The notes below the pieces were generated by a model. The model searched no databases, was not told where the DNA came from, and saw nothing but the letters and a program-made list of their open reading frames with translations. Position numbers and translations under genes: made by a program. Shown here one piece after another: positions 56,810 through 64,000 of a stretch of 64,000 nucleotides of DNA (position 1 is the first letter of the stretch; each line of letters begins with the position of its first letter). Source of the DNA: Curtobacterium sp. UNCCL20. Its GTDB lineage: Bacteria > Actinomycetota > Actinomycetes > Actinomycetales > Microbacteriaceae. The stretch spans positions 62,001 to 126,000 of the forward strand of contig NZ_FNKG01000004.1 of assembly GCF_900101675.1 (NCBI RefSeq), in the 5' to 3' direction.

Positions 56810-59296
56810 ATGGCACGCACGGAAGCAGTCGGCCTGCCCGACGGTGAACGCATCGAGGACGTCGACGTCTCGGAGGAGATGCAGGGCTCCTTCCTCGAGT
56901 ACGCGTACTCCGTCATCTACTCACGGGCACTCCCGGACGCACGCGACGGTCTGAAGCCGGTCCAGCGGCGCATCCTCTACCAGATGTCGGAGATGGGGCT
57001 GCGGCCCGATCGGGGCCACGTCAAGAGCGCCCGCGTCACCGGCGAGGTGATGGGCAAGCTGCACCCGCACGGCGACGGCGCGATCTACGACGCACTCGTG
57101 CGCATGGCGCAGCCGTTCACGATGCGGGTGCCGCTCGTCGACGGGCACGGCAACTTCGGCTCCCTCGACGACGGCCCCGCCGCCGCGCGGTACACCGAGG
57201 CGCGCCTGGCCGAGCCGTCGATGGCCATGACCGAAGGCCTCGGCGAGGACGTCGTCGACTTCGTCCCGAACTACGACAACCAGATCATGCAGCCCGGCGT
57301 GCTGCCCGCGGCGTTCCCGAACCTGCTCGTCAACGGCGCGTCGGGCATCGCGGTCGGCATGGCGACGAACATGGCGCCGCACAACCTCGGCGAGGTGGTC
57401 GAGGCCGCGAAGCACCTGCTCATGAACCCCGATGCCTCGCTCGAGGAGCTCATGGAGTTCGTGCCCGGACCGGACCTGCCCTCCGGCGGCACGATCGTCG
57501 GGCTCTCCGGGGTGCGCGACGCCTACGCCAGCGGTCGCGGCTCGTTCCGCACCCGGGCGAAGGTCGCCGTCGAGAACCTCACCCCGCGCAAGATGGGACT
57601 CGTCGTCACCGAGCTGCCGTACCTGGTCGGCCCCGAGCGCGTGATCGAGAAGATCAAGGACGGTGTCCAGGCGAAGAAGCTCGTCGGCATCTCCGACGTC
57701 AACGACCTGACCGACCGCAACCACGGGCTCCGGCTCGTGATCGGCATCAAGTCCGGGTTCAACCCGACCGCCGTACTCGAGCAGCTCTACAAGCACACCC
57801 CGCTCGAGGACGGCTTCGGCATCAACAACGTCGCCCTGGTCGGCGGGTCGCCCCGCACCCTCGGGCTGCGCGAGCTGCTCGACGTCTACGTGCAGCACCG
57901 GCTGTCGGTCGTCACCCGGCGGTCTGAGTACCGGCTGGCGCGGCGCCGCGAGCGGCTGCACCTCGTCGAGGGACTCCTCATCGCGATCCTCGACATCGAC
58001 GAGGTCATCCAGGTCATCCGCACGTCGGACGACTCCGAGGCCGCCCGCAACCGGCTGCGGGACGTGTTCGACCTGTCCGAGGTGCAGGCCGAGTACATCC
58101 TCGAACTGCGCCTCCGCCGCCTGACGAAGTTCTCGCGGATGGAGCTCGAGGCCGAACGCGACCAGCTGCTCGCCGACATCGCCGCGCTCGAGGAACTGCT
58201 CGGGTCCGACGAACGGCTCCGTGCCCAGGTCGCGCTCGAGCTCACCGAGGTGTCCGACAGGTTCGCCACCCCGCGCCGCACCCTCCTCACCGAGGCCGAC
58301 GCACCGGTCCGCGGCGGTCGGAAGGCCGCCGTCGACCCGGAGTCGCTGCAGATCGCGGACGCCCCGTGCCGCGTGCTGCTCTCGACCACCGGGCGCCTGG
58401 TGCGGGTGGACATCCCCACGTCGGACCTCGGCATCGTCCGGGTACCGAAGCGGTCCAAGCACGACGCCGTCCGCTCCACCGTGGTGTCCACGGTGCGCGG
58501 ACAGGTCGGCGCGCTCACCTCGACCGGACGCGTGCTGCGGTTCTCGCCGGTCGACGTGCCCGCAGTCCCACCGGCCTCGGTCCGGCTCGACGCCGGCGTC
58601 CGGGTCACCGAGTACCTCGGCATCCCGCGCGGCGAGGTCGTCGTCGCGCTCGTGGACCTGTCCCCCGCGGCACCGGACTCCCTCGCGATCGGCACCGCGC
58701 AGGGGATCGTGAAGCGCGTGACCACGGGAGCCTGGCCGGACAAGGACGAGATGGTCGCCATCGGGTTGAAGCCCGGTGACTCGATCGTCGGTGCGACCCA
58801 GGCGCCGGAGTCCGACGACCTCGTGTTCATCACCTCGAACGCGCAGTTGCTCCGGTTCGGGGCGTCCGCCGTCCGGCCCCAGGGGCTCCCCGCGGGCGGT
58901 GTCGCCGGCGTGGCCCTGGCCGCCGGGGCGTCGGTGATCTGGTTCGGCTCCGTCGCGCCGTCCGACGACGCCGTGGTGGCCACCGTGTCGACGTCGTCCT
59001 CAGCGCTGCCGGGCACCGACACCGGACGCGCCAAGGTCTCCGCGCTGTCCGAGTTCCCGGCGAAGGGCCGTGCGACCCAGGGGGTCCGGGCGCACGCGTT
59101 CCTCAAGGGCGAGGACGGGCTCACCGTGGCGTGGGCCGGCATCGCGCCGCCGCACGCGGTCGGGACGGACGGGTCGGCGCGGACGCTGCCGGACTGGCTC
59201 TCGAAGCGCGACGGCTCGGGAGCGCCCCTCGACGCGGTGATCGGCACGATCGGCGGGAGTGCTGCGGCGCTCGACGGGACGGCCGGCGAGGCGTAG
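56810..59296 (+). CDS. parC: DNA topoisomerase IV subunit A
   Basis: An 828-aa type IIA topoisomerase A subunit that decatenates chromosomes with ParE. The catalytic Tyr128 is in 'AARYTEARL'; the breakage-reunion domain spans ~20-500 and the C-terminal beta-pinwheel follows. A GyrA box is absent, which together with the ParE partner supports topo IV rather than gyrase. The quinolone-determining region reads '[12 protein letters not shown]', with Gly90 where GyrA/ParC usually has Ser or Ala. ATG 56810 has AAAGGTG upstream. Confidence 0.88.
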
Positions 59297-59846
59297 GCGC
59301 GCGGCGCCGGCGCGGCGCGCTCCGGCGTCGTGCTCCGGCGTCGTGCTCCGGCGCCCGCTCCGGCCACGTGCTCCGGCGTCCTTTCGCGAAAGCGACAGTG
59401 TCCCGCGAACAGTTCGTGGGGCACTGTCGCGTTGGCGGTACAGACCCCACACGGTGGCGTCACGGTGTCGCTTCGGCGGCACCGAGACTCGGCCTGAGCG
59501 ACATCGTTCGCGGTCCGGCACCCGAGATCGGTCGCCCAACGCGAGACTCGCTGGCCGGGAGGCGCGGGCCAGCCACATCCGGAGCGCTCGGTCCGCCAGC
59601 GCGGAAGCGACAGAAGTCCGCCAACAGTTCGCGCCACGGTGTCGCTTCGGCGGCACGGATCGCGCACGGTCGCGCCACGGTGGCGCTTCGGCGGGACGGA
59701 CCACGCACGGTGGCGGCGCGGTGTCGCTTCGGCGGCAGCGAGACTCGGGCTGAGCGACCGAACTCGGAGCACGCAGCCCGAGACAAGTCGCTGACCGCGA
59801 GACTCGGGCCACCCGCTCGCCGCGAGACGCGGGCCGGCCGCGCGCG
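59297..59846. repeat. 550-bp repeat field between parC and parE
   Basis: No gene. TGCTCCGGCGTCG-type 13-mers repeat at 59320-59380. A hairpin with arms AGCGACAGTG/CACTGTCGC spans 59391-59429. CACGGTGTCGCTTCGGCGGCA or close variants recur at 59461, 59636, 59676 and 59719. A longer unit ending CGAGACTCGG(C/G)CTGAGCGAC occurs at about 59483 and 59738. A half palindrome GGAGGCGCGG lies at 59558. Confidence 0.7.
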
Positions 59847-61973
59847 CTACGCGTCGATGCGGTCGCGGTCGAGCCCCTCACCCGCGAGGATGAACTCCTT
59901 GCGCGGCGCCACGTCGTTGCCCATCAGCAGCTCGAAGACCTTCGCGGCGCTCTCGGCATCGGGCACCTTCACCCGCCGCAGCGTCCGGTGCGCCCGGTCC
60001 ATCGTGGTCTCCGCGAGCTGGTCGGCGTCCATCTCGCCGAGGCCCTTGTACCGCTGGATCGGCTCCTGGTACTTCTTGCCCGACTTCTCGAGCTTCTTCA
60101 GGACCGCCTGGAGCTCTTGCTCCGAGTAGGTGTACAGCGTGTCGTTCGGCTTGCCACGGTTGATGACGACGACCCGGTGCAGCGGCGGGACCGCGGCGAA
60201 CACCCGGCCCTCCTCGATCATCGGCCGCATGTACCGGAAGAACAGGGTCAGCAGCAGCGTACGGATGTGGGCACCGTCGACGTCGGCGTCCGACATGATG
60301 ATGATCTTGCCGTAGCGGGCTTGCTCGATGTCGAACGTGCGGCCGGACCCGGCGCCGACGACCTGGATGATCGAGGCGCACTCGGCGTTCGAGAGCATGT
60401 CCGACACGGACGCCTTCTGCACGTTGAGGATCTTGCCGCGGATCGGCAGCAGCGCCTGGTACTCGCTGTTGCGCGCGAGCTTCGCGGTGCCGAGCGCGGA
60501 GTCGCCCTCGACGATGAAGAGCTCCGTGCCGTCGGTGTCCTGTGAGCGGCAGTCCGCGAGCTTGGTCGGCAGCGAGGAGTTCTCGAGCGCGTTCTTGCGG
60601 CGCTGGGTCTCCTTGTGCGCGCGGGCCGAGATGCGGGTCTTCATCTCGGCGACGACCTTCTCGAGCAGGGTCGCTGCCTGGGCCTTCTCGGTGCGCTGCG
60701 TCGAGGTGAGGATCTCGGTGAGGCGCTTCGACACCACCTGGTCGACGATCTTCCGGACCGCCGGGGTCCCGAGGATCTCCTTCGTCTGTCCCTCGAACTG
60801 CGGCTCGGGCAGTCGGACGGTGAGCACGGCGGTCATGCCGGCGAGCACGTCGTCCTTCTCGAGCTTGTCCTGTCCGACCTTGAGCTTGCGGGCGTTCGCC
60901 TCGACCTGGGCGCGGACGGCCTTGATCACGCCGGACTCGAACCCTGCCTGGTGTGTGCCGCCCTTGGGCGTCGCGATGATGTTGACGAAGCTGCGGAACA
61001 CGGTCTCGTAGCCGCTGCCCCAGCGGAGCGCGAGGTCGACCTCGCATTCGCGGTCGACGGACGTGGACACCATGTGGCCCTTGTCGTCGAGCATCGGGAC
61101 GGTCTCGGTGAACGTGCCGGTGCCCTGGATGCGCCAGACGTCGGTGACGGCGGAGTCGACGGCGAGGTGTTCGACGAACTCGCCGATGCCGCCCTCGTAC
61201 CGGAAGCGCTCGACCACGGGACCGGCGGCGACCGGAGTGCCGGTGGCCTCGGCGCGGTCGGCCGCGGCCTGGATCGACGCGGGGCGGGCATCGGTGATGG
61301 TGAGGCCGAGCCCGGGGACGAGGAACGCGGTCTGGCGTGCACGGCTCACGAGGTCGCTCGTGCTGAACTTCGCGTCGGCGGTGAAGATCTGCCGGTCCGC
61401 CCAGTACCGGATCCGCGAGCCGGTGACGCCCTTCTTGACCTTGCCCACGACGCGGAGCTCGCTGCCCGAGGTGAACGGCGAGAACGGCGCGTCCGGACCG
61501 ATGCCCTTCGCGTCGTCGAACACGCCCGGCTCGCCGCGGTGGAACGACATCGCGTAGGTCTTGCCGCCGCGGTCGACCTCGACGTCGAGACGCTCGGACA
61601 GGGCGTTCACGACGGAGGCACCGACGCCGTGCAGGCCACCCGAGGCAGCGTACGAACCGGACCCGAACTTGCCGCCGGCGTGGAGCTTCGTGAAGACGAC
61701 CTCGACCCCGGTCAGTCCGGTCTTCGGTTCCACGTCGACGGGGATGCCGCGCGCGGTGTCCCGGACTTCGACCGAGCCGTCCGCGTGGAGCACGACGCCG
61801 ATCTCGTCACCGTGTCCGGCAAGCGCTTCGTCGACCGAGTTGTCGATGATCTCCCACAGACAGTGCATGAGGCCCCGGGAGTCCGTCGACCCGATGTACA
61901 TGCCCGGGCGCTTCCGGACCGCCTCGAGCCCTTCGAGGACGGAGAGATGGCGTGCGGAGTAGTCGGAGCTCAC
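59847..61973 (-). CDS. parE: DNA topoisomerase IV subunit B
   Basis: A 708-aa GHKL ATPase subunit. ATP site 'LWEIIDNSVDEALAG' and 'GGLHGVGASVVNALS'; transducer with 'GTHQAGFESG'; TOPRIM 'EGDSALGTAKL' and 'DADVDGAHI'. It ends with 'YKGLGEMDADQLAETTMD' and the tail domain. It is convergent with parC across the repeat field. GTG 61973 has TAGCAT (61985-61980) 6 nt upstream, though GGAAGG also overlaps the spacer. Confidence 0.93.
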   Translation of the reverse strand: MSSDYSARHLSVLEGLEAVRKRPGMYIGSTDSRGLMHCLWEIIDNSVDEALAGHGDEIGVVLHADGSVEVRDTARGIPVDVEPKTGLTGVEVVFTKLHAGGKFGSGSYAASGGLHGVGASVVNALSERLDVEVDRGGKTYAMSFHRGEPGVFDDAKGIGPDAPFSPFTSGSELRVVGKVKKGVTGSRIRYWADRQIFTADAKFSTSDLVSRARQTAFLVPGLGLTITDARPASIQAAADRAEATGTPVAAGPVVERFRYEGGIGEFVEHLAVDSAVTDVWRIQGTGTFTETVPMLDDKGHMVSTSVDRECEVDLALRWGSGYETVFRSFVNIIATPKGGTHQAGFESGVIKAVRAQVEANARKLKVGQDKLEKDDVLAGMTAVLTVRLPEPQFEGQTKEILGTPAVRKIVDQVVSKRLTEILTSTQRTEKAQAATLLEKVVAEMKTRISARAHKETQRRKNALENSSLPTKLADCRSQDTDGTELFIVEGDSALGTAKLARNSEYQALLPIRGKILNVQKASVSDMLSNAECASIIQVVGAGSGRTFDIEQARYGKIIIMSDADVDGAHIRTLLLTLFFRYMRPMIEEGRVFAAVPPLHRVVVINRGKPNDTLYTYSEQELQAVLKKLEKSGKKYQEPIQRYKGLGEMDADQLAETTMDRAHRTLRRVKVPDAESAAKVFELLMGNDVAPRKEFILAGEGLDRDRIDA

Positions 61974-62142
61974 CTTCCGATGCTAGCGAGCACCGCCGAC
62001 ACCACCCGCCGGACACTCGGACTGGGGGCAGCCGATCCGCGCTGAGCGAAATGGACCACTGACAATGCATGACTCTCAGGCATCACGTGTTGAAATAGGT
62101 GGACCAACCCGGCACCACCTGCGATCCGTGAGGAGCACAGCA

Positions 62143-62367
62143 ATGACCCAGACCGTGCAGGACCTCTCCATCGACGAAATCGGCAGCAACCAGCTCACCG
62201 CTGCTGACCGCTGCGACAGCTGCGGGGCGCAGGCCTACATCCGAGCCACCATGGCTTCCGGCGAGCTGTTCTTCTGCGCCCACCACGGAGCAGAGTTCAA
62301 GGACAAGCTCGCGGCGACCGCCATCGAGTGGCACGACGAGAGCAGCCGACTCTACGAGTCGAAGTAG
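62143..62367 (+). CDS. DUF7455-like zinc-ribbon protein
   Basis: A 74-aa protein with a CXXC ('DRCDSCGAQAYIR') and a later CXXH ('LFFCAHHGAEF') that could bind zinc. Small proteins of this type are widespread in Actinobacteria, often near sigma factor or topoisomerase genes; function unknown. AGGAGC precedes ATG 62143 by 6 nt. Confidence 0.8.
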   Translation: MTQTVQDLSIDEIGSNQLTAADRCDSCGAQAYIRATMASGELFFCAHHGAEFKDKLAATAIEWHDESSRLYESK

Positions 62368-62467: not shown

Positions 62468-63241
62468 TCAGGCGATCCGCTTGAACGCCTTGTCGACGTA
62501 GCGGTCGACGGTGGCCCGCGCTTCGCGCGCGTACCGGTCGATGCTCGCGGTGCGCTCCGGGTCCGGCGCGTACTCGCGGCCGAGCCGCGCGGTGGCCGCG
62601 GCGAGGACGCCGTCGGTGAGCTGCGGGTTGAGCGGCAGGATCGGACCCTGCGTGTGCGTGCCGAACGAGTTCCCGACGATCGCACCCTCGACCGGAGCAC
62701 CGGCCTGGTTGCCACCGCCGGACACGACGTCGGCGAACGGCTGGACGCCGGCGCCGAGTTCGATCGTCGTGGCGTGGTCCTCGAAGCCCGCGAGACGCGT
62801 GGGCGCCCCGGGCAGGAGCGGGTAGCGGGTGTCGAGGACGAAGTAGTTCACGCGACGCTCTGCGCCTCGGACGGCACGGGCGTCGAACACCCCGAAGCCG
62901 GACACGGCCGAACCCTCGGTGGGGACGACCTCGTTCGTGGCCAGGTCGAACCCGCCGCCGACCGCGACGACCGGCACACCGGCGGCCGCGAACTCGCGGA
63001 GGGGTGCCCCGATCCGGGCCACGTCGGCACCGAGTGACCGCATCGCGCTGAGCGGTCCGTTGCCGATGACCACGACGTCGGCCGCGGTGGGCAGGGTGTC
63101 GCCGGGCGCGTACTCGAGCACCTCGGTGTCGATGTCCGCAGCGGCAGCGCGGCGGACGAGTGCCGCGACGTTGCCGCGGTCGCCCGACACACCCATCTGC
63201 CGGGGGTAGACGTGCAGGATGGTCAGCCGTTCGGCCGTCAT
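62468..63241 (-). CDS. GatD-like type 1 glutamine amidotransferase-fold protein lacking the catalytic pair
   Basis: A 257-aa protein of the CobB/CobQ-like GatD family, partner of MurT in lipid II D-glutamate amidation. The fold motifs are recognisable: 'LTILHVYPRQMGVSGDRGN', 'SGFGVFDARAV' and 'GAIVGNSFGTHTQGPILPLN'. The nucleophile elbow, normally C-G-G-Y/F, reads 'VGGGFDL' with Gly95 in place of Cys. The catalytic His of the G-T-Y-x-H-G-P motif is Gln198 ('GTHTQGP'). The usual GGGQD/E loop reads 'GNGPLSAM'. Glutamine hydrolysis is therefore unlikely. ATG 63241 overlaps the MurT stop (ATGA), so the two are made together. It may act as a structural subunit that feeds or accepts a nucleophile other than glutamine-derived ammonia. 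Confidence 0.8.
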   Translation of the reverse strand: MTAERLTILHVYPRQMGVSGDRGNVAALVRRAAAADIDTEVLEYAPGDTLPTAADVVVIGNGPLSAMRSLGADVARIGAPLREFAAAGVPVVAVGGGFDLATNEVVPTEGSAVSGFGVFDARAVRGAERRVNYFVLDTRYPLLPGAPTRLAGFEDHATTIELGAGVQPFADVVSGGGNQAGAPVEGAIVGNSFGTHTQGPILPLNPQLTDGVLAAATARLGREYAPDPERTASIDRYAREARATVDRYVDKAFKRIA

Positions 63242-64000
63242 GCGGTCTTCTCCATGTCCGGGTGGCCGAGGGCCTTGCGGGCGATCATCATGATCTCGTA
63301 GTTGACGATGAAGTTCTTCGTGCCGCGGGTCGTGGCGCCGAGCTGCTCCATGTGCTTGATCGCCGCTTCGACGTCGGGCTCGACGCGTCCGATGCGGACA
63401 CCGGCGTGCTCGAGCGCGATCGCGATCTGCCACGCCTTGTCACCGGAGACGACGTCCACGTGGTCGAGCTTCGAGAAGTCGATGTCGTAGATCCACGAGA
63501 TGTCCGGCGTGCCCTCGTCGATCGCCATGAGGACCTGCTCGGGGTGGTCCGGCAGCGCGTCGAGGTTGAGCTGGAGGCTGGCGGCGTTCTTGAACATCGT
63601 GAACTCGGCGGACTCGCCCGCGATGGGCAGCCGCTCACCGCGGCCGTACGCCGGCTTCATCGTGCCGAAGGCCTTCGTGACGGCGTCGGCGCGGAACTGC
63701 GCACCGAGCGCGGCACTGGCCGTCGCCGTGGCGGCAGCCGCGTCGACCGCGTAGTGCAGGCCGCGCGCGGGCAGGCGCACCGGGATCTCGGCACCGGCGA
63801 ACCGGATCGTCGCACCGTCGCCGGTGTGGGCGACGACCTCGGCGTCGGCCGCGGTCTGCGTGCGCGCTCCCCCGCCGAACGAGTCCGCGTTCTGCAGGCC
63901 GTTCGGGGCCGCGGCGATGACCTCGTCGCTCGCGCCGAAGCGGAGGACGTGCTGCCCGTCGACCGCGGTGTACGCGTCGAGGAACTGGTCGTCGTGGTTC
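63238..64000 (-). CDS. MurT-like lipid II ligase subunit (5' end outside window)
   Basis: The visible 254 residues are the C-terminal half of a Mur-ligase-fold MurT protein: middle-domain end ('VRLPARGLHYAVDAAAATAT') and the DUF1727 C-terminal domain ('VLMAIDEGTPDISWIYDIDF', 'SGDKAWQIAIALEHAGVRIG'). In Gram-positive bacteria MurT activates the alpha-carboxyl of D-Glu in lipid II and GatD supplies ammonia. Typical MurT proteins carry a four-cysteine zinc ribbon after an 'ADS' segment; here 'NADSFGGGARTQTAAD' follows and no cysteine occurs anywhere in the visible part. The ATP-binding N-terminus is outside the window. Confidence 0.82.
   Translation of the reverse strand, partial: NHDDQFLDAYTAVDGQHVLRFGASDEVIAAAPNGLQNADSFGGGARTQTAADAEVVAHTGDGATIRFAGAEIPVRLPARGLHYAVDAAAATATASAALGAQFRADAVTKAFGTMKPAYGRGERLPIAGESAEFTMFKNAASLQLNLDALPDHPEQVLMAIDEGTPDISWIYDIDFSKLDHVDVVSGDKAWQIAIALEHAGVRIGRVEPDVEAAIKHMEQLGATTRGTKNFIVNYEIMMIARKALGHPDMEKTA

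Follow-up and report, generated by a model that had tools for sequence, protein, structure and literature searches.

The murT-gatD pair at the end of the analyzed window (the whole stretch of 64,000 nucleotides from Curtobacterium sp. UNCCL20) has lost the glutaminase residues of its GatD subunit, and we lean, with modest confidence, towards a role in which D-Glu receives a D-amino acid at its α-carboxyl from the altered pair, here called MurT*-GatD*, which would act as a bridge ligase for D-diamino acids with GatD* as its non-hydrolysing partner. Taken together with published work, the retention of the ligase residues, the loss of the DNAAD motif and of the gate arginine, purifying selection on GatD* and the linked racemases lead us to infer such a D-amino-acid ligase. 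Our confidence is held to this level by the exception of Leucobacter, by the presence of one ligase family across different diamino acids and by slots that are free of racemases. The original prediction of a pair repurposed as a diamino-acid ligase is strengthened by the finding that glutaminase loss is the rule, by its coupling to MurT, by the fixed locus with racemases, by the absence of such loss from all relatives read outside the family, by the lack of a second MurT in the genome and by purifying selection; however, the link to group-B walls is not one-to-one, and ornithine in particular gained no support. The comparison of loci, the racemases and the alternative ligases go beyond what that prediction had in view.

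The gatD* gene (62468..63241, minus strand) encodes a protein of 257 amino acids that was recognized by residue alignment and fold. Gly95 is aligned with the nucleophile Cys94 of S. aureus GatD and Gln198 with His189, and the GGGxD loop is altered. Thus, the replacements and the loop loss that had been read from the sequence are borne out by the alignment, as is the retention of the rest of the fold: the folds of the MurT-GatD isoglutaminyl synthase were found in both subunits, while neither the Cys nucleophile nor the catalytic His of GatD is present. Arg129 is retained and aligns with the arginine in KTNRLTG of S. aureus, which we take from its numbering to be the glutamine-capturing residue. 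The proposal that His196 might substitute as the catalytic histidine has to be dropped, because GatD* contains no cysteine at all. Glutaminase function is almost certainly lost in the altered pair. In S. aureus GatD, the C94G and C94S substitutions abolish amidation in vitro (PMC6113224); therefore, a natural glycine at this position should not support amidation, and the known mechanism of glutamine-dependent amidation should not be open to the altered pair. A GATase_3 search of the Curtobacterium genome gave four places, gatD* and three weaker ones.

The visible C-terminal part of murT* occupies positions 63238..64000 (minus strand), and the rest of the gene lies beyond the window, extending to G000:C2:126497. 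The complete protein has 419 amino acids and no cysteines, so that the N-terminal half agrees with the visible part in this respect. Among the retained residues are the P-loop GSNGKST, the Mg-binding Glu112, Asn85 and the aspartate before xSW (Asp349, the third residue of the triad), whereas DEGTPD stands in place of the DNAADGRD motif and the gate arginine is replaced by Val137. Published work ascribes to the DNAAD motif a presumed contact with the stem peptide (PMC6113224) and describes the gate arginine as an ammonia gate (PMC6085368). The absence of the Cys4 zinc ribbon, originally used as a functional clue, cannot serve as one, since the 28 canonical relatives from other families of the order also have too few cysteines. 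Lys59 of the P-loop, Glu112 and Asn85 are invariant in all 21 aligned MurT* from the slot between rpoD and parE. Residue 252, which aligns with the adenine-pocket asparagine of canonical MurT, is Asp in 55 of 70 slot MurT* and Asn in the other 15, a substitution that might reflect a change of nucleotide. The MurT of Curtobacterium pusillum is 92% identical to that of the window. A second complete murT-gatD responsible for amidation would have weakened the prediction; murT* encodes the only MurT_C protein of the Curtobacterium genome, and second, canonical pairs exist beside the altered one in some relatives, namely Leifsonia aquatica and genomes G054, G066 and G124.

A draw of 160 Microbacteriaceae genomes contained GatD-like matches in 137 and MurT matches in 142; 12 of the latter were judged to be noise at the level of MurF, which gives 130 MurT-bearing and 30 MurT-less genomes. 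The set used for residue reading comprised 133 MurT loci with 132 GatD proteins (L007-L096 and 43 more), a few fragmentary cases such as that of G099 being left out. The Cys-His pair is absent in 113 of the 132 GatD proteins, and the remaining 19 keep Cys, His and GGGxD. The MurT motif NDxxADGxDxSW is present in all 19 canonical pairs and in none of the 113 altered ones, and the gate arginine in 19/19 canonical versus 9/113 altered pairs, those nine being the class III loci. At the nucleophile position, the 106 slot GatD proteins carry Gly (72), Ala (15), His (9), Asn (4), Ser (4) or Thr (2), and never Cys; the catalytic His is retained in 62 and Arg129 in 99 of them. In most loci read, gatD* directly follows murT*, with the exception of Naasia (L161), where they lie ∼7 kb apart. 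The dN/dS ratio of GatD* is 0.06-0.20 in 11 of 12 pairs, similar to canonical GatD, and 0.48 in the twelfth; GatD* is under purifying selection, and pseudogene decay is rejected on these values.

In the MurT tree, classes I, II and V group together in a clade beside canonical MurT (support 89/96, below the star of the tool), and classes III and IV make up another, with long-branch warnings; a common origin for all altered pairs is not supported, as these classes fall into separate clades. The class III pairs (L044-L050, L053, L068), which occupy the same slot, have His at the GatD nucleophile position (FTHNALEV-like), and their MurT proteins keep CxxC pairs, two in most, and possess a longer substrate loop. 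In six other relatives (L055-L060), GatD is shortened to 180-201 amino acids.

Outside the family, the canonical form was found throughout. Canonical residues are present in all 28 GatD proteins read from other families of the order, and likewise in all 24 readable GatD proteins beside the best MurT matches of a 396-genome phylum search, which gave 26 outside loci, two of them with no readable GatD, and shares at least three genomes with the order set; these outside proteins are best matches rather than a census, and were grouped by taxonomy. An order-wide draw gave a GatD match at E ≤ 1e-10 in 80 of 198 genomes. The GatD proteins of Arthrobacter humicola and Rothia amarae, genera to which we presumptively assign group A walls, are canonical.

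The altered pairs are tied to one chromosomal location. In the window, a small conserved ORF of 100 amino acids (62065..62367, plus strand) lies between gatD* and parE, on the strand opposite to both, and occupies the same place in many slots; parE (59847..61973, minus strand), the type II topoisomerase subunit B gene, which was named by eye from its sequence, closes the rpoD-parE slot on its far side. RpoD adjoins 107 of the 133 MurT loci but not one of the 19 that are canonical, and the gene order is rpoD-murT*-gatD*-small ORF-parE wherever the stretch reaches. The 26 loci with no RpoD in the fetched stretch comprise the 19 canonical and 7 altered pairs. The surroundings of rpoD were also checked in 22 chosen Microbacteriaceae genomes, four of which have MurT* in the slot. 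Sixteen have canonical MurT only (all 16 pairs were read), and in 15 of these parE is reached within 1.5 kb downstream of rpoD, the interval being free of the ligase genes that were searched for; in the sixteenth (L254), a MurE-like gene, recognized by eye, follows rpoD. The two other genomes carry altered pairs elsewhere and have, after rpoD, parE (L257) or an alanine-racemase-like gene (L240, by eye). Further down in the window, positions 59131-59880, downstream of a ParC-like gene, show overlapping ORFs with recurring Arg- and Ser-rich stretches on both strands, which suggests short DNA repeats.

A scan with an rpoD-core consensus gave, among the matches listed, 36 family loci (L156-L190 and L197, with some doubt about L189 at 87% identity): 18 with MurT, 14 with CofE, one with a MurE-like gene and three with none of these. 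Among the matches listed, the MurT slots belong to Curtobacterium pusillum, Leifsonia aquatica, Leifsonia sp., Herbiconiux gentiana, Rathayibacter (two), Agromyces, Amnibacterium, Naasia, Ruicaihuangia, Cryobacterium, Glaciihabitans (two), Microcella putealis, Pontimonas, Rhodoluna and two unplaced loci, and the CofE slots to all 11 Microbacterium loci, one contig labelled Stenotrophomonas, Salinibacterium and Microcella alkaliphila. The contig labelled Stenotrophomonas maltophilia P13 (L177) has an RpoD and slot content that look like those of Microbacterium. Among the 44 listed rpoD loci outside the family, the fetched stretches contain no match to racemase, MurT, GatD, CofE, ATP-grasp, EctB, MurE or MurJ, and parE is visible in 40.

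The MurT-less genomes often carry a different ligase at the same place. Of these 30 genomes, 29 yielded rpoD, followed within 1.5 kb by a CofE-like protein (PF01996) in 18, 13 of which also have an ATP-grasp match (PF14397) there, and directly by parE in six. Slot-type CofE, defined in a genome-wide search by E < 1e-100, is present in 22 of the 30 MurT-less and in none of the 130 MurT-bearing genomes (Fisher p = 1e-20, kinship ignored), and eight of the 30 have neither. Nineteen of these 22 CofE genes lie in the slot (one, L312, behind an EctB gene), two (G094 and G156) elsewhere with the slot empty, and one (G044) at a contig end. A whole-genome search of 23 genomes from the RpoD-core scan found no MurT in the nine that carry CofE. 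Seven genera (g7, g9, g13, g57, g58, g76 and g84) hold both the MurT and the CofE states, the CofE of g13 lying outside the slot; therefore, switching has been repeated. A distant CofE homolog (E 1e-38 to 1e-44) occurs in three MurT-bearing genomes, directly beside a class IV MurT in two of them. An apparent operon in G053 (L311:5607-8556) and in G123 combines a distant CofE-like protein, a divergent class IV MurT and a GatD devoid of Cys and His.

Racemases accompany both kinds of ligase. Among the matches listed, an alanine-racemase-fold match occurs in 4 of the 18 MurT loci, 14 having none, and in 10 of the 14 CofE loci. In a non-random set of 18 hand-picked family stretches (L296-L313), mostly from two-state genera and including one (L311) that represents the class IV operon rather than the slot, racemase matches are present in 7 of 10 MurT-bearing and 6 of 7 CofE-bearing slots. 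In most loci they are two neighboring genes. In six loci (L157:12791-14856, L166:12761-14544, L302, L303, L304 and L310), one member has a KADAYGHG-like motif, which we take to contain the PLP lysine, and no VSYG, while the other has VSYGY, a type of motif in which we assume the catalytic tyrosine, and a replaced lysine; the motifs were read by regular expression, and one or both were missed in other loci. Such split pairs are probable heterodimeric racemases with one active site, as judged from the distribution of the two motifs. The slots of the Curtobacterium UNCCL20 genome and of Curtobacterium pusillum contain no racemase; elsewhere in the UNCCL20 genome (L294:5880-8140, that is G000:C6:223880-226140), a racemase with both motifs lies beside another that gave no VSYG match. 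Other slot genes include ectB, encoding diaminobutyrate aminotransferase, in three slots (L172, L302 and L312, the first over the NCBIfam cut-off), a MurJ-like gene in two (L159 and L306) and a MurE-like gene over the TIGR01085 cut-off in L197. An altered MurT-GatD pair together with racemase matches in the slot was also seen in G015 (L067, L313), a 0.93 Mb genome on a contig of 927303 bp.

We propose that MurT*-GatD* descended from the lipid II amidotransferase and would no longer use glutamine. By analogy with MurT and the Mur ligases, MurT* would phosphorylate the α-carboxyl of D-Glu in the stem peptide, and an amino acid, instead of ammonia, would attack the acyl-phosphate through its amino group. 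The incoming amino acid would most likely be D-ornithine, D-lysine or D-diaminobutyrate, the interpeptide bridge of B2-type walls. GatD*, itself non-hydrolysing, would keep MurT* together, and its old glutamine pocket may also accommodate the incoming amino acid, given that nearly all slot copies retain Arg129. The rpoD-parE slot would then be an exchangeable wall module, containing either MurT*-GatD* or the CofE-like protein with ATP-grasp, often a split racemase and sometimes a DAB aminotransferase or MurE. More tentatively, at slightly less than even chances, we suggest a cross-bridge cassette in which non-homologous ligases swap within genera while sharing a two-subunit racemase, with the PLP lysine on one subunit and the catalytic tyrosine on the other; ligase and racemase would jointly produce and attach the D-diamino acid of B2 walls, and an amidotransferase would have turned into an amino-acid ligase whose former glutaminase serves as an amino-acid holder.

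Comparison with wall types gave a mixed picture. The diamino acid of Curtobacterium walls is presumably ornithine. Herbiconiux walls are B2γ with D- and L-DAB (PMC10011130), so MurT* class I spans both ornithine and DAB walls, and the idea that the MurT* class simply encodes the diamino acid is rejected. The walls of Microbacterium contain D-Orn, L-Lys or DAB (PMC10757982), yet all 11 listed loci have CofE; therefore, the module type does not map onto the diamino acid. An exception-free correlation between group B and the slot is excluded by Leucobacter, reported as cross-link type B with DAB (PMC4804768), since both Leucobacter genomes lack a slot ligase and each has a single MurT, which, like its GatD, is canonical. 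An altered MurT is thus not found in every group-B genome, considering these genomes and the nine CofE genomes that lack MurT. The co-variation with group B that had been suggested for checking holds in that glutaminase loss is the rule in Microbacteriaceae and is coupled to MurT, but not as a one-to-one relation. In Clavibacter, D-DAB is reported to bridge D-Glu and D-Ala (PMC9603630), and amidated D-Glu is also reported in muropeptides, so amidation is possible in the family.

The latter report, together with the retained P-loop and Asn85, agrees with a MurT* that still amidates D-Glu using free ammonia, GatD* being structural only. Many amidotransferase synthetase subunits can use ammonia. 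However, this explanation, which we consider rather improbable, accounts neither for the loss of the NDxxADG motif and the gate arginine nor for the linkage with racemase, EctB and MurE-like genes and the exclusion of CofE, and an additional ammonia-dependent amidase would be redundant in the four genomes, Leifsonia aquatica among them, that also possess a canonical pair. Somewhat more probable, but still clearly behind the D-diamino-acid ligase, is a wall-precursor ligase for a non-diamino residue, such as Gly or another first residue of the bridge, or for another carboxyl of the stem. The same locus evidence agrees with it, B1 walls carry Gly first, and the MurT* classes vary in their substrate loop, but the linkage with racemases and DAB aminotransferase points to a D-diamino acid, even though the racemase could serve another step.

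It is quite unlikely that the slot pair modifies a non-peptidoglycan polymer or a small molecule, as could be imagined from the cofactor ligase family to which CofE belongs and from the sugar-transfer association in the name of PF14397; the ancestry of MurT argues against it, as do the genes for racemases and for MurE-like and MurJ-like proteins that some of these slots contain. Finally, GatD* could be a decaying relic beside a MurT* active alone, given the shortened GatD in six loci (180-201 amino acids), the variable active-site residues and the archaeal MurT-like genes that exist without GatD (PMC11915815). We regard this as very improbable, because murT* is followed by gatD* in most loci read, Arg129 is conserved in 99 of 106 copies, and dN/dS resembles that of canonical GatD (0.06-0.20 in 11 of 12 pairs).

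Titles and listings of the open-access literature outside bioRxiv contained no description of an altered MurT-GatD in Microbacteriaceae, and no enzyme that builds the group-B cross-bridge was named in the open-access literature searched. The rpoD-parE locus gives candidates for such enzymes and would represent a natural change from ammonia transfer to probable amino-acid ligation; the slot may also serve as a genetic marker of wall type in a large family.

Among the closest known systems are the Mur ligases MurC-F and the archaeal pMurE and pMurC. CofE (F420-0:γ-glutamyl ligase, PF01996) and ATPgrasp_ST (PF14397) are also ligase families and share the slot, often with the same racemase company, but CofE is unrelated to the MurT-GatD family, and the slot CofE, with 30.7 bits, lies far below the CofE equivalog cut-off of 180.65 bits. 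The archaeal MurT-like proteins of pseudomurein producers are likewise MurT-type proteins not tied to a working GatD; in their case GatD is wholly absent, and they form a separate clan in that source (PMC11915815). The lipid II isoglutaminyl synthase MurT-GatD of S. aureus and S. pneumoniae shares with the altered pair the folds, operon order, P-loop, Glu, Asn85, the Asp before xSW and the aligned glutamine-capturing Arg, whereas the altered pair has neither the Cys nor the His, has lost the GGGxD loop and the gate Arg, has a shortened DNAADGRD motif and resides at another locus.
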